Source: an uncultured Porphyromonadaceae bacterium
GTDB taxonomy: Bacteria > Bacteroidota > Bacteroidia > Bacteroidales > Muribaculaceae
Direction of reading: 5' to 3'
Length of the DNA: 64,000 bases
Assembly: GCA_946414395.1 (NCBI GenBank)
Contig: CAMKOE010000001.1
Location: forward strand, 1-64,000
Part shown: piece after piece, positions 52,501 through 58,253 of the stretch
Numbering within the stretch: position 1 is the stretch's first letter
How the letters are laid out: every line of letters starts with the position of its first letter
The notes under the pieces: model-generated
Told to the model about the DNA's origin: nothing
Seen by the model: the letters and a program-made list of their open reading frames with translations, nothing else
The model's database searches: none
Made by a program: the position numbers and the translations under genes

Positions 52501-53601
52501 TTACTCGGGATTCTTGCTGTGATAGAAGTCGAGGGGCTCCCCGTTGATGGCGTCCTTGGTGTGGTTCATCCACACTTGACGGATGGTGGGGAGTTCCAGC
52601 AGACCCTTCTCGATCATGGTCGAGTTGTTGCACTCATAGCCCATGTGGTGGAAGTACATCTTCCAGGAGGTGTCCTCAACCTCACCCTCGTCGTTGTAGG
52701 TGAACTTCTCGCCGTCCCAGTTGTCGTCATCGTCACCAGCCATGTCGTTGTGGCCGTGGTCACCGTCGATCGACATCAGCGGGTGGCAATATACCTTACC
52801 GCTGGTGATGCCAGCAACCATCATGCGGGTGTGGACGTTAGTCTTGAAGTTACCGATCATGTCAACAGTGCCCACAAAGTAGTTCTGACTGTACTGCTGC
52901 AGGGCCTCCTCAAGTTGGGTGTAGCGGATGTTGGCCTTGTAGGTGTCATAGTTGTCGGGGTTACCGTGGCCCATAAAGGCAACAACGCCCTCGCTGGCCT
53001 TGTCTTTGTAGAGTTTGTTCAACTCGCTGGCAACCAGATTCACATCGGCGTCGCGGTCCTGCAACAGGGGCACACCCAGTTTCAGGGTCACGCTGGCCAG
53101 GTAGTGGTCATCGATGTCACCGTTGGAGTTGTTGGCAAAGTCCTTGATGTAGTTGATCACGCGGGTGTATTCCTCACCGGGAATCACCTGCAGCGATTGA
53201 ACAACGATTTCGCTGTAGCGCACGCCATCCTGGGCAAATGCATTGAGCCAGAAGGGGGGAGCATAGAAGTTGCGGGGATCCACGTTCTCGCCGGCTGCTG
53301 CGCGGTTGATGCAGATGGCTGATGAGAATGACAGGAACACGTCATAGCCGGGGAATGCCTGCTTGTAGGCCTCTACGGTGGCGTCAAACGCGTTGTAGGC
53401 CTGCTCCCAGGTCGAACCGAAGGCCACCAGCAGAATGACCTTGGAGTTCTTCTTCTGGGACTTAACAGTCTCGTTAACGGCTTTCTGGTAAACGGTGTAG
53501 TTGTTCTCGATGGGATCGTTCTTGTCGTCGTTGCAAGAGGTGAAACCCATGGTCAGACAGATTGCCAGCATGGCAATCAATAATGATTTAATCTTCATCA
53601 T
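52501..53601 (-). CDS. cbiK: Exported lipoprotein CbiK-type cobaltochelatase
   Basis: CbiK-family chelatase, which inserts cobalt into sirohydrochlorin, but with a lipoprotein signal peptide (MGFTSC, C23), so it should sit in the periplasm or on the outer membrane. The 366 residues include VAFGSTWEQAYNAFD, a glutamate at 143/144 (VIPGEEY), H212 in AFMGHGNPDNY, and HPLMSIDGDHGHNDMAGD with H282. The last segment closely follows the conserved metal-site sequence of cytoplasmic CbiK. About 50 extra residues and an aspartate-rich insert (DMAGDDDDNWDG) are unusual. Exported CbiK may handle tetrapyrrole metal exchange or metal scavenging outside the cytoplasm; that is inference. It sits between two BtuB-like receptor genes. 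Confidence 0.88.
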   Translation of the reverse strand: MMKIKSLLIAMLAICLTMGFTSCNDDKNDPIENNYTVYQKAVNETVKSQKKNSKVILLVAFGSTWEQAYNAFDATVEAYKQAFPGYDVFLSFSSAICINRAAAGENVDPRNFYAPPFWLNAFAQDGVRYSEIVVQSLQVIPGEEYTRVINYIKDFANNSNGDIDDHYLASVTLKLGVPLLQDRDADVNLVASELNKLYKDKASEGVVAFMGHGNPDNYDTYKANIRYTQLEEALQQYSQNYFVGTVDMIGNFKTNVHTRMMVAGITSGKVYCHPLMSIDGDHGHNDMAGDDDDNWDGEKFTYNDEGEVEDTSWKMYFHHMGYECNNSTMIEKGLLELPTIRQVWMNHTKDAINGEPLDFYHSKNPE

Positions 53602-55741
53602 TGTTTTGGTGTTTTGAGTTAAAGTTAGACTTATATTTATTAGAAAGTTTCTTTCCTTGATTGAAGCGTATGGTCAGCGACACATATCCCGTGCGGCCCG
53701 GCGTGGTCGTGCCCAGGTGCAGGCCGTGAGGCGTGCGGTCGCAGTAGTTGAAGATGTTATCGACACCCGCCTCCACGCGCCAGACCGTTGACTTGAAGTG
53801 CCCCAGGTCGTGGCTGGTGGACAGGCGCCACGTCTGGTAGCCCTTGCCGTTGCCGTCGTCCTGGTAATAGCGGGTGCTTGACATGCGGCCGTAGATGCCC
53901 AGCCCCAAGCGGTAATCGGGCGAGAAGCGGTGCCCCCACGTGGCAAACCAGTTGCCCTTGTGGTGGGCAGTGCCGTCGATGGTGACCTCGTGCATCTTGT
54001 CGTGATTGGTGTCATACTGGTGGGCATCGGTGTCCAGGTAACTGTAGCCCAGGCCGAAAGAGAACTCGCGCCACTGGTAGTTGATGTTGACGTCAATACC
54101 CATGGTTCGGGCATCCTCGATGTTTTGGTACTGGCGGGTCTTGACAGGGTCATACTGGATGATGTATTCGTCAGGCGCCTGATAGTTGGGGATGGTCACC
54201 AGGGCAATCATGTCCTTGACCTTATTGTAATAGCCCGTGACGGTCACACTGAGTCCGCGCCAGCCATACTCGCCGCTTACCGAGAAGTAATTGCTCGATT
54301 GCGGCTTGAGGTCGGTATTGCCCAGGTAGAGGTAGGTGCCGCTCATCTGGCGCACGTAGCGGTAAAACAGTTCGCGGATGGCCGGGGTCTTGAATCCCTG
54401 GCTCCATGTGGCACGCAACCGCCATGGATTACCGATTTTCCACATGGCCGACACCTTGGGCGTCAGTTTGATGCCGAATTGCTCATTCTTGTTCAGGCGC
54501 AGGCCAGCCGTGATGTTGATGTTGTTGATGAGGCTGAATTCGTCCTGCAAGTAGGCCGCTGCCGTCCAGTCGCTCGCCTTGCCGCCCTTGACTCGCGTCG
54601 GGGCCTTCAACCAGTCGTAGCGGTATTCCAGACCGGCGCTCAAGCGATTCTCCATCGGCAGCGAGAACACGCCCTTGAGCGTGGCCATGGTGCGCTGCTG
54701 GTCGCTCTGCAACTCCTTCTGGTCAGGCAGATACGGGAAATAGGGGTAATAGGGCGTGCCGGCGCTTTTCTCGTAGTCCTCGACCAGCGTCGTGGCAGTA
54801 TAGTAGTAATAATAGGCGTGACGGTTCCAGTCCACATCCAGCGAGATGAAATCTGTCTTGTTGCGCTGCCATTTGCCGCCCACGGCTGCCGAGCCGTTAT
54901 GATACTCCATGTCCCATGTCTTGACATCATAGTGTGGATGGCGGCCGCTCACGCGGTAGATGCGTTTCCAGTACAACGTGCCGTCGGCATACAGTTCCAC
55001 GTCCTTGACGGGACGGTAGGTCAGCCGCTCGGCCACCTGCCAGTTGGTGTGGCGGTTCACGGTCTTGTTGCGCGAGTCGGTAATCGGCGGCTCGGAGCCC
55101 TCGGTGTGTTCTACCGCGGTGTTCTGCCAGCCGTCGCTGTGCTGCAACTGGAAATTGGTGTAGGAACTGAACTTGCCGTAGTTCAGCGCCAACCCGTTGT
55201 GCTGACGCACGTCGCCATAACTGCCCACGCGGGTCGTGTTCTCGACGAGCACACCCTGGTCACGGTGCTTGCGGGTGATGATGTTGACAACACCGGCGAT
55301 GGCGTCGCTGCCATACAGCGCGCTCGACGCACCCTTCACAATCTCGATTTTCTCGATATTCTGCGGGTCGATCAACGCCAGGTCATTCTGTCCGCCCACA
55401 TCGCCGTGAATGCGCTTGCCGTCGATAAGAACAAGGATATATCCGTTGCCCAGTCCTCCCAGTTGCATCTGCGAGCCCATGTCATCCTCGCCAAAGGCAA
55501 ACGACGCCGTGAGGCCACTCAGGATGTCCTCGATGCTCTTGCCAGAATAATTCTGAAGCATCTTGCTGGTGATGACTTCGGTCTGTACGGGCGCGTCCTT
55601 CAACAGGTGCTGCGTTCCAGTACCTGTAACTACTACCTCTGGCAGACTGTCCTGTCGCCAGACCTCACTTTGTGCATTGACAGCAACAACCGCACACCAT
55701 GCCAGCACCATTGCTGCTGTCAGTCTTTTTTTTCTTCTCAT
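53588..55741 (-). CDS. btuB: BtuB-like TonB-dependent outer-membrane receptor (first in operon)
   Basis: Outer-membrane receptor of 717 residues, the first gene behind the cobalamin riboswitch. A signal peptide (1-~23) precedes a plug with LPEVVVTGTGTQHLLKDAPVQTEVITSKML, GGLGNGYILVLIDGKRIHGDVGG and KIEIVKGASSALYGSDAIAGVVNIITR. A long barrel follows, ending in an aromatic strand (GYVSLTIRFNQGKK) plus a short polar tail. The stop overlaps the CbiK start region by 14 bp. Riboswitch control is the strongest evidence for cobalamin or cobamide uptake. The protein differs clearly from the second receptor, so the two may take different ligands. Confidence 0.88.
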   Translation of the reverse strand: MRRKKRLTAAMVLAWCAVVAVNAQSEVWRQDSLPEVVVTGTGTQHLLKDAPVQTEVITSKMLQNYSGKSIEDILSGLTASFAFGEDDMGSQMQLGGLGNGYILVLIDGKRIHGDVGGQNDLALIDPQNIEKIEIVKGASSALYGSDAIAGVVNIITRKHRDQGVLVENTTRVGSYGDVRQHNGLALNYGKFSSYTNFQLQHSDGWQNTAVEHTEGSEPPITDSRNKTVNRHTNWQVAERLTYRPVKDVELYADGTLYWKRIYRVSGRHPHYDVKTWDMEYHNGSAAVGGKWQRNKTDFISLDVDWNRHAYYYYYTATTLVEDYEKSAGTPYYPYFPYLPDQKELQSDQQRTMATLKGVFSLPMENRLSAGLEYRYDWLKAPTRVKGGKASDWTAAAYLQDEFSLINNINITAGLRLNKNEQFGIKLTPKVSAMWKIGNPWRLRATWSQGFKTPAIRELFYRYVRQMSGTYLYLGNTDLKPQSSNYFSVSGEYGWRGLSVTVTGYYNKVKDMIALVTIPNYQAPDEYIIQYDPVKTRQYQNIEDARTMGIDVNINYQWREFSFGLGYSYLDTDAHQYDTNHDKMHEVTIDGTAHHKGNWFATWGHRFSPDYRLGLGIYGRMSSTRYYQDDGNGKGYQTWRLSTSHDLGHFKSTVWRVEAGVDNIFNYCDRTPHGLHLGTTTPGRTGYVSLTIRFNQGKKLSNKYKSNFNSKHQNNDED

Positions 55742-56862: not shown

Positions 56863-56910
56863 TAAAATAAAAACTGCTTAATTCGCTGTTTTATAGCCAA
56901 TTAAGCAGTT
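56863..56910 (-). terminator. Terminator beyond the distal tRNA-end repeat
   Basis: AACTGCTTAATT (56872-56883) pairs perfectly with AATTAAGCAGTT (56899-56910) around a 15-nt loop. On the complement it is followed by a T-rich run (TTTATTTTATT). It lies 4 nt beyond the repeated tRNA 3' end, where a tRNA terminator would be. Confidence 0.7.
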
Positions 56911-56914
56911 GTGG

Positions 56915-56929
56915 TTGTGGAGCATAGCG
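56915..56929. repeat. Distal copy of the tRNA-Ala 3' end (att-like direct repeat)
   Basis: TTGTGGAGCATAGCG is identical to 58178-58192, which covers the last 12 nt of tRNA-Ala plus 3 nt downstream. The two copies are in direct orientation 1263 bp apart and enclose the lipoprotein gene. Confidence 0.75.
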
Positions 56930-57126
56930 CTTTATGGAGCGATATGGATTGACACCCATAGGATTGATAATGTTCGGATTGTCAGTTGCTTAGATTAAGC
57001 TATCGATTCTATGTATATCGATGAATACCCCGTTATCCCGTAAAAGGGGGAAATCAATGTACCCCCCAAAAAGCGAGATAACCACCGAAAAAGTTGAGAT
57101 AATGAAATGTTTAGCAATATTTTTCA

Positions 57127-57134
57127 TACCTTTG
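57127..57134 (+). promoter_or_regulatory. -7 element before the islet lipoprotein
   Basis: TACCTTTG, 73 nt before the start codon at 57207. No well-spaced -33 TTG is visible. Confidence 0.38.
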
Positions 57135-57206
57135 CAATGCACAATGATATATAAACAAGAAATCACTTAATTAGAATTCATAATTTAATATTTTATGATT
57201 CACACA

Positions 57207-58124
57207 ATGAAAACAATTAATCTATTGATTTTATTATTGTCGTTTACTGTAGGGCTGGCATCTCTTACATCATGTAGTGATGATGGGCCTGAGCCTGTGG
57301 CCAAGGCTCCAGTCTTCAATATGAATGAAAGCTTCACAATCACCGCAACCTGCCCAAACAGTTACAAGGCATTTATTAACGGCGAGGAGAAAACACTGCC
57401 TTATTCAGTTACCCAAACTTATCAGCAACAGACCATTGTGGTGTCGGGTTACGGCTATGGCATCAATTTACAGAATAGTGATACGGTTGAGCAGACTTTC
57501 GAGGTACCTGCCATAGAAGATAATCATGAATATGTTGACTTAGAGTTGCCCAGCGGCACGCTGTGGGCTACGTGCAACGTCGGTGCCAGCAGCCCAGAAG
57601 AGTACGGCGACCACTTCGCCTGGGGCGAGACCTCTCCTAAGGATTACTACGACAGTAGCACCTACAAGTGGTGTTACTATGATAATAACGGGTATTGGCA
57701 GTTGACGAAATATGATTATTCGTCATTTCCGACTATTGAAGGAGACGGCAAGACCGAATTGGATCCCGAGGACGATGCGGCTTACGTCAATTGGAACCCG
57801 TATTGGCGCATGCCGACCAGTGACCAGATTGAAGAGTTGGTAAATTGCTGTTCTTGGCAGTGGACGCAGCGCAATGGCGTGAACGGTCAGTTGGGGACCG
57901 GGCAGAATGGCAACACCATCTTCTTGCCCGCCGCCGGCTACCGCTGGCGCGAGTCGCTCAGCAACGTGGGCTCGGTCGGTCGCTATTGGTCGCGCTCGCT
58001 CTGCTCGTACGACACCGCCGATGCCTACCTCCTGAACTTCTATTCGTTTAACGTGTACAACTGCTTCAACTTCAACCGCTTCAACGGTTTCGCAATACGT
58101 GCTGTACGCGTCTCGCAGAATTAG
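57207..58124 (+). CDS. Lipoprotein with C-terminal FISUMP / C-type-lectin-like variable domain
   Basis: Surface lipoprotein of 305 residues. The signal peptide ends LASLTSC (C23 when starting at MKTINLL; an ATG four codons earlier is also possible). A small beta domain (~30-105) is followed by a FISUMP/DUF1566-like domain: YVDLELPSGTLWATCNVGASSPEEYGDHFAWGE, WRMPTSDQIEELVNCCSW, IFLPAAGYRW, then YWSRSLCS and the end GFAIRAVRV. This fold is used as the variable, C-type-lectin-like domain of diversity-generating-retroelement targets. The last ~25 residues have Phe, Tyr, Cys and Asn, each encoded by a TTY, TAY, TGY or AAY codon, the set produced from AAC by adenine-directed mutation. No reverse transcriptase is in the window. 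It lies alone between tRNA-Ala end repeats. Confidence 0.72.
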   Translation: MKTINLLILLLSFTVGLASLTSCSDDGPEPVAKAPVFNMNESFTITATCPNSYKAFINGEEKTLPYSVTQTYQQQTIVVSGYGYGINLQNSDTVEQTFEVPAIEDNHEYVDLELPSGTLWATCNVGASSPEEYGDHFAWGETSPKDYYDSSTYKWCYYDNNGYWQLTKYDYSSFPTIEGDGKTELDPEDDAAYVNWNPYWRMPTSDQIEELVNCCSWQWTQRNGVNGQLGTGQNGNTIFLPAAGYRWRESLSNVGSVGRYWSRSLCSYDTADAYLLNFYSFNVYNCFNFNRFNGFAIRAVRVSQN

Positions 58125-58140
58125 CAACCAATGAAATAAA

Positions 58141-58171
58141 AAATAAGCGGCTGAAATTCAGTCGCTTATTT
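58141..58171. terminator. Bidirectional terminator between the islet lipoprotein and tRNA-Ala
   Basis: AAATAAGCG (58141-58149) pairs with CGCTTATTT (58163-58171), with an inner CTGA/TCAG stem and a 3-nt loop. It can end both the lipoprotein mRNA and, on the complement, the tRNA transcript. Confidence 0.75.
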
Positions 58172-58180
58172 GATGGATTG

Positions 58181-58253
58181 TGGAGCATAGCGGACTCGAA
58201 CCGCTTACCTCAACACTGCCAGTGTTGCGCTCTACCAGATGAGCTAATGCCCC
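58181..58253 (-). tRNA. tRNA-Ala (anticodon GGC)
   Basis: A complete 73-nt cloverleaf on the complement. The acceptor GGGGCAT pairs with ATGCTCC (one G-U). The D arm is GCTC/GAGC. The anticodon stem CAACA/TGTTG encloses CTGGCAG, giving anticodon GGC (codons GCC/GCU). The T arm AGCGG/CCGCT has loop TTCGAGT, and the discriminator is A. The CCA end is not encoded (the next bases are CAA). Promoter and terminator are present. The 3' 12 nt are duplicated at 56915-56926, suggesting use as an integration site. Confidence 0.96.

Follow-up and report, generated by a model that had tools for sequence, protein, structure and literature searches.

How does a lipoprotein gene beside a tRNA gene come to end in codons of the kind that a diversity-generating retroelement (DGR) writes, and is this end still being rewritten? 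The gene lies in a 64,000-nucleotide stretch of DNA, here termed the window, from an uncultured Porphyromonadaceae bacterium (Muribaculaceae; assembly GCA_946414395.1, contig CAMKOE010000001.1, positions 1 to 64,000). The original prediction, made from the letters of the window, saw a FISUMP/C-type-lectin-like lipoprotein diversified by a DGR located elsewhere in the genome or, alternatively, a non-DGR paralog of the same fold. The reading that we consider likely is a different one: the gene is an orphaned and frozen DGR product within a unit inserted at tRNA-Ala, its 3' part has moved between species, and the unit depends on a recombinase acting in trans.

The lipoprotein gene and its C-terminal domain

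57207..58124, plus strand: predicted lipoprotein gene (305 aa) with an N-terminal signal containing a Cys, a linker and a C-terminal domain
57921..58109, plus strand: variable region (VR), residues 239-301, the last ~63 codons, which aligns with confirmed DGR template repeats

The open reading frame at 57207-58124 is as predicted and encodes 305 aa; an alternative in-frame ATG at 57195 yields a 309-aa lipoprotein. The N-terminal signal with its Cys is taken by us as a lipobox, and the protein ends in ...YWSRSLCSYDTADAYLLNFYSFNVYNCFNFNRFNGFAIRAVRVSQN. Its second half (from about residue 105) constitutes a domain present in many copies in the genus: with the window protein as query, matches at E<=1e-20 were obtained in 33 of the 61 genomes searched, the largest count in a single genome being 27 (G009). 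The FISUMP label had to be given up, since in Pfam the window protein has no match to PF09603 (Fib_succ_major) at E<=1, and Lcl_C (PF07603) scores 19.2 bits, below its curated cut-off of 34.9. Eight aligned family members include six with Lcl_C and one with Fib_succ_major at E<=0.1. As to the C-type-lectin fold, the AlphaFold model of the window protein is too weak for a decision, with a pLDDT below 50 for most of the VR; Foldseek returned no PDB match for it at E<=0.001, and a sequence search of solved structures gave two matches, both at E ~0.7.

Phage and plasmid collections contain distant relatives only (6 and 1 records, respectively), the phage records including the Prevotella phages Lak-A1, Lak-A2 and Lak-C1 with a 32%-identical relative of the domain. 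At four further loci (L107, L108, L109 and L235) family domains are found in open frames of 1551, 1897, 4359 and 4633 aa, and L107 and L108 harbour several of these domains in tandem. A viral origin of the gene was rejected, since L251, the only IMG/VR locus to hold a close relative, resembles a piece of bacterial chromosome, its neighbour presumably being a DnaG-like gene.

Insertion at the 3' end of tRNA-Ala

56872..56910, unstranded: hairpin that directly adjoins tRNA-Ala in empty-site relatives
56915..56929, unstranded: displaced 15-bp copy of the tRNA-Ala 3' end; empty-site homology ends at its last base
56930..58192, unstranded: inserted unit of 1,263 bp, including one 15-bp repeat copy, with the lipoprotein gene as the sole recognised gene
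56930..57074, unstranded: module 1, end-adjacent, found beside tyrosine recombinase genes in relatives
57080..57206, plus strand: module 2, upstream region common to related genes of the genus
58178..58192, unstranded: second 15-bp repeat copy, the 3' end of the intact tRNA-Ala
58180..58253, minus strand: tRNA-Ala (anticodon GGC), the integration target

The gene is precisely inserted at tRNA-Ala. The 15-bp repeat TTGTGGAGCATAGCG has two matches with up to two mismatches, where 0.13 are expected. On the other side of the tRNA lies the gene for ZapA, to which 92 of 101 genomes of the genus have a match, and the 29 best other ZapA loci were used as an empty-site test. In 10 of these 29 loci the joined flanks are spanned by one alignment, i.e., the site is empty, and the occupied left junction matches nine loci, each only to the last base of the repeat. 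Directly repeated copies of the tRNA 3' end and an empty site in relatives, as expected of a tRNA-integrated unit, are thus both seen here. The tenth locus (L212, genome G021) shows no more than 85% similarity, and a family gene lies there ~0.7 kb from tRNA-Ala, on the far side of the junction; at L212/L222 (G021:C3) the junction that is occupied in the window is free, yet a related gene stands near tRNA-Ala.

Module 1, the first 145 bp of the unit, recurs in relatives and was present in 11 of 12 fetched loci; its counts are lower bounds, because only part of the first-look candidates was scored. Seven of the 12 fetched loci, L284 included, contain beside module 1 an integrase 89-100% identical to the L284 reference (three of the seven are cut by the edge of the fetched stretch), and the L284 integrase matches PF00589 and PF13102. 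Module 1 occurs together with the lipoprotein gene in at least three genomes: the window's own (G000), G101 and G120. An integrase was sought in the window, and hence in the unit, without a match, and in the own genome the closest proteins to the L284 integrase reach no more than 31% and 29% identity.

The arrangement in G120 can be seen at L282 (G120:C15:26000-31000), where module 1 plus lipoprotein gene is followed in tandem by module 1 plus integrase, with tRNA-Ala-type repeats. The adjoining TonB-receptor-like gene resembles, by eye, the one at 53588-55741 of the window.

A possible other account, which concerns the insertion alone and is compatible with any reading of the VR, is that ordinary homologous exchange or descent produced the locus; the 15-bp repeats would then mark an old island insertion that no longer moves. 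It would explain why the tract nearly identical to G101 (see below) has one end within the gene and the other near the tRNA, the outcome expected of homologous recombination, and it agrees with a unit devoid of an integrase in a genome where no close one was found. It accounts less well for exact empty sites in as many as 10 loci and for module 1 plus gene in three species, one of which has the tandem with an integrase-bearing unit. On balance, we lean towards a unit that is mobile now or was so recently, with the recombinase supplied in trans.

A DGR with the same target scaffold in the genus

PF00078 is matched in 43 of the 101 genus genomes, and some of the proteins, including that of G079, bear what we take to be DGR-type reverse transcriptase (RT) motifs. 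Twenty stretches, mostly around RTs, were scanned for repeats that differ at A, with BPP-1 as positive control (119 bp, 17 A and 0 other mismatches). G079 (JAFZKD010000119.1, Muribaculaceae bacterium RGIG7840; loci L104/L073) contains a template/VR pair of 203 bp with 28 A and 2 other mismatches. The variable repeat belongs to a 757-aa protein, whose domain is 62% identical to that of the window, and target, small gene, template and RT follow one another in a DGR-like arrangement. Translation of the template gives FLPAAGNRWNDSLNNAGSNGYYLSRTLNSNNPNNAYNLNFNSGNWNNWNNNYNRNNGYTVRAVRVS, which is the scaffold of the window protein with Asn at the variable sites. Exact template-motif scans identified 13 genome contigs and 1 viral contig, and 10 of these 14 loci have a template repeat-variable repeat (TR-VR) pair.

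Seventeen family loci of G079 were compared with its template; for ten no alignment passed the threshold, and the seven that aligned include the cassette itself as well as two overlapping loci (L224/L250). The mismatches range from 24 A plus 5 other over 155 bp (L238) and 12 plus 2 over 96 bp (L230) to 26 plus 15 over 161 bp (L240) and 8 plus 9 over 86 bp (L233), all remote repeats, and to 12 plus 17 over 127 bp in L224, the G079 ortholog of the window gene. This range indicates that a single genome holds fresh to aged targets. Stop readthrough at the in-frame TAG of several relatives was discarded, because template and target of G079 (the one genome checked for this) end in VS-TAG, a few residues before the end of the window protein.

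The G079 template (L073, 9400-9602) has TTG (Leu) at a codon where TGG (Trp) stands in the VRs aligned with it and in 115 of 122 scored family members; TTG also occurs in one copy each of G020 (L124) and G035 (L162), as if written from such a template. Other template/variable pairs of the genus (L079, L080, L082-L085, L087 and L089; L074 and L088) serve other target scaffolds, and their AAC-rich templates of 111-127 bp are unrelated to the window gene. Finally, the template pattern lies on a similar C-terminal scaffold in two records titled Candidatus Saccharibacteria (L098, L101), and L101 has a TR-VR pair with 24 A and 0 other mismatches.

The adenine footprint in the window

Residues 277-293 are encoded by AAY, TTY, TAY and TGY codons only, apart from TCG, GTG and CGC, so that the described alternation of Asn with Phe, Tyr and Cys codons is borne out. 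At the columns where the template has Asn, 22 of 22 window codons are NNY and 20 are NNC, and the G079 variable repeat shows the same numbers at the same 22 columns. Our alignment holds 152 domains: those of 12 templates, 12 more from DGR loci, the domain of the window gene and 127 family members, among which the own paralogs are counted. Only two of the 127 reach 100% NNY at these columns, as true variable repeats do. The paralogs of the own genome (NNY 19/21, 17/21 and 15/19; NNC 10, 9 and 8) are thereby ruled out as fresh VRs. The chance of 22/22 NNY is p ~3e-6 at the rate of the upstream high-entropy columns (0.56) and p ~0.01 at the family's own rate for the template-Asn columns (0.81). 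Within the gene, NNC makes up 43/52 of NNY in the last 70 codons compared with 64/133 in the first 235; neighbouring genes likewise prefer C-ending codons.

In codon alignment with the G079 template, the window VR mismatches at 28/53 A and 27/136 non-A positions (OR 4.5, p 1.5e-5); the control, in which the upstream half is compared with the G079 target, goes in the opposite direction (A 21/88, non-A 111/311). Thus 28 of 55 mismatches are at A relative to a foreign template, the sole one of this scaffold in the genus and no cognate one being known; the share lies below the ~75-80% or more of mismatches at template adenines that serves as the mark of cognate TR-VR pairs. If 158 domains are ranked by non-A mismatch to the G079 template, A mismatch amounts to 0.48-0.71 in the 32 best rows, and non-A mismatch starts at 0.014, the value for the VR of G079 itself, and climbs to a median of 0.33; with 0.20 the window holds rank 13. 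Immediate saturation at A combined with slow drift elsewhere would give this pattern. Shared scaffold and codon-level footprint both support the proposal that AAC codons of a template were mutated at adenines, and a DGR origin of the 3' end is very probable.

Is the variable region still being rewritten?

The own genome, 78 contigs totalling 2.63 Mb, has a completeness of 81% and hence is probably a metagenome bin. Its only PF00078 match (L001, C2:131914-132531) is an RT of the retron type, 488 aa in length and extended far at the C-terminus; the best PADLOC models are RT-Protease_XI and RT-TIR_XII, the NCBIfam retron models stay below their cut-offs, and being retron-type it was ruled out as a DGR RT. 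The DGR RT of G079 has no match in the 81%-complete own genome at E<=1. The template pattern, with up to one mismatch allowed, is absent from the own genome and from G120 and present in one of the 101 genus genomes, namely G079. A DNA search of the own genome with 57880-58124 returned the region itself, two family paralogs and two 21-base matches. The A-tolerant scan likewise found no template repeat within the window, in agreement with the first description. The suggested search for a DGR RT with a matching template consequently produced neither, which in a genome of this completeness is not proof of absence.

57426..58220, plus strand: tract nearly identical to G101, with diverging flanks
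58141..58171, unstranded: AT-rich inverted repeat 3' of the gene, terminator-like

G101 represents another species, as its ZapA is 83% identical. Codons 74-305 differ from the window by 2 nt, with a few more differences past the stop, compared with 46 of 72 matches in residues 1-73. The VR protein is the same, the DNA carrying one synonymous non-A change, and no DGR RT was found in G101 (92% complete). The VR of G120 differs at codons 248 (CGC/TGC), 269 (GAC/AAC) and 300 (GTA/GTG); two of the three (248 and 269) are template-A sites, numbers too small to judge, and these two changes fit late diversification as well as ordinary transitions. Across the two comparisons, variation is not confined to template-A sites. 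G120 carries a DGR RT 37% identical to that of G079, and the only template-like repeat that the scan showed beside it (L072) has another scaffold, with 6 A mismatches over 51 bp.

Both fates are seen in the genus. There are 477 between-genome pairs of putative orthologs with an upstream identity >=0.72, and among the 45 most similar of these, 16 are frozen like the window (template-Asn columns 0.75-1.00 identical), 20 are diversified (template-Asn columns 0-0.25, other VR columns 0.52-0.83 identical) and 9 lie in between. Since the genomes are probably metagenome bins, cross-assembly could mimic transfer between species.

Phage DGR targets possess a GC-rich hairpin or cruciform 4-34 bp past the VR, with 7-10-bp stems and 4-nt loops (PMC3240598). 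No hairpin of this type was found near the end of the window VR, where only the AT-rich terminator-like one occurs; the criterion is weak for the window, as it was established for phage DGRs. The inverted repeat at 58141..58171 was rejected as a DGR cruciform, because similar hairpins stand beside tRNA-Ala in several relatives that lack the lipoprotein gene at this site.

Taken together, the notion of a distal target served by a retroelement elsewhere in the genome is not supported: in the 81%-complete assembly the sole RT found is retron-type and no template was found, and the VR is near-constant in G101 and G120. An active remote DGR, with RT and template hidden in the fifth of the genome that the assembly lacks and the gene still being rewritten, appears unlikely. 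The incomplete assembly leaves room for it, the codons are no less clean than those of true variable repeats, G079 does have remote targets such as L238, and the two template-A differences involve a genome, G120, that owns a DGR RT. Yet the VR protein is identical in the more complete G101, where again no RT was matched, the phage-type hairpin is missing, and 100 of 101 genus genomes, including the own genome and G120, are without the template pattern. That the VR is frozen and orphaned is accordingly our clear preference.

A third-base footprint across the genus

In 150 family members, fourfold-degenerate codons end in C or T in 709/875 cases (0.81) at the template-Asn columns as opposed to 419/822 (0.51) at 18 high-entropy upstream columns, mean column entropies being 3.56 and 3.16 bits; identical copies, DGR loci, the window and G101's copy had been removed before this count. 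Stratified by codon box, the excess has an OR of 3.65 (p 1.5e-28, a value in which kinship remains) and points in the same direction in each of the eight fourfold boxes. It is unchanged without G079 and DGR loci (137 members, OR 3.63), and the per-sequence difference is positive in 105 of 126 scorable sequences. In thinning tests, for which the G079 copies were removed as well (G120's copy is in neither set), 106 representatives below 70% identity gave an OR of 3.97 (p 2.5e-23) and 54 below 60% an OR of 3.27 (p 1e-9), both p values including remaining kinship; with the six representatives below 50% the signal is not significant (p 0.23). The adenine footprint spans the whole genus.

That the 3' end was never a DGR product, and that selection for aromatic and small polar residues together with a bias for C-ending codons made it, is very improbable: the C preference of neighbouring genes and the missing cognate template would suit this account, but it fails to explain a C/T excess that is uniform over all eight boxes relative to high-entropy columns of the same domain and that persists in the 54 representatives, an A-specific excess of the window that the VR shows and the upstream half lacks, and the template's unusual TTG in L124 and L162 against TGG in nearly all scored members. 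The alternative of a non-DGR paralog therefore falls with respect to origin, for which scaffold and footprint speak, and is retained with respect to the present state, as the gene seems to evolve ordinarily.

Proposed history and implications

We infer the following course, in which the lost DGR, the mobilisation in trans and a function in surface binding are the inferred parts. In the past, a DGR would have produced the VR from its template by mutagenesis at adenines, either in this lineage or in a donor. The DGR then may have vanished, or it may never have been in this host, and the gene would have been retained for an ordinary lipoprotein whose binding tip is fixed. Its 3' two thirds would have moved between species by recombination, and the whole gene would have been delivered as a 1.26-kb unit into the tRNA-Ala 3' end, with a tyrosine recombinase acting in trans as the probable agent.

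As a tentative generalisation, the DGRs of the genus might be a source of ready-made binders that are written, released, fixed, duplicated and passed on, some of them as integrase-dependent units at tRNA ends. If so, a DGR would not only tune one live target, but feed a lasting, mobile receptor repertoire. The column-specific third-base test detects DGR-written genes without an RT or template and can be used on any genome set. Should it hold, many hypervariable lectin-like proteins of gut bacteria would be DGR products that have outlived their DGR, and the fate of the winners of DGR diversification would become directly testable.

Comparison with known systems

The closest system is the DGR of G079, the target of which has the same C-terminal domain and VR, and to whose template the window aligns in codon register. 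G079 possesses, besides RT and template, a candidate accessory gene, and its target is followed by inverted repeats, one of them with an 8-bp GC stem and a 4-nt loop ~80 bp past the VR; none of these was found in the genome of the window.

Isolates of Treponema denticola that lack RT and TR keep DGR targets, mostly lipoproteins, and their leftover VRs differ from known TRs mostly at adenines, as described by Nimkulrat 2016 (PMC4891356). The window gene resembles these targets in that neither a DGR RT nor a TR was found in its 81%-complete genome. In T. denticola the template is known from the same species; the window gene differs by its tRNA-linked insertion, by a footprint that extends over the genus and by a copy common to three species. 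In cyanobacteria, dispersed C-type-lectin paralogs occur, one of which retains remnant TR-VR homology with no RT nearby, and the part of that report considered here describes neither freezing across species nor a tRNA-integrated unit (PMC7517822).

Genomic islands at tRNA genes have a regenerated target and a displaced fragment at their ends and use tyrosine integrases, as outlined for the Islander database (PMC4383910). The unit in the window shares the regenerated tRNA and the displaced fragment at its ends, and it departs from the islands outlined there by its size of 1.26 kb, the absence of an integrase inside and its cargo, a DGR-derived lipoprotein gene.

A literature search, with subscription papers and preprints mostly outside its scope, yielded no DGR variable protein on a tRNA-integrated unit. 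As far as the searches show, three features are new: the genus-wide third-base footprint, a VR that three species share almost unchanged, and a tRNA-integrated unit whose sole recognised cargo is a DGR-derived gene. Leftover DGR targets as such are already known; the scale, the freezing and the insertion appear to be new.
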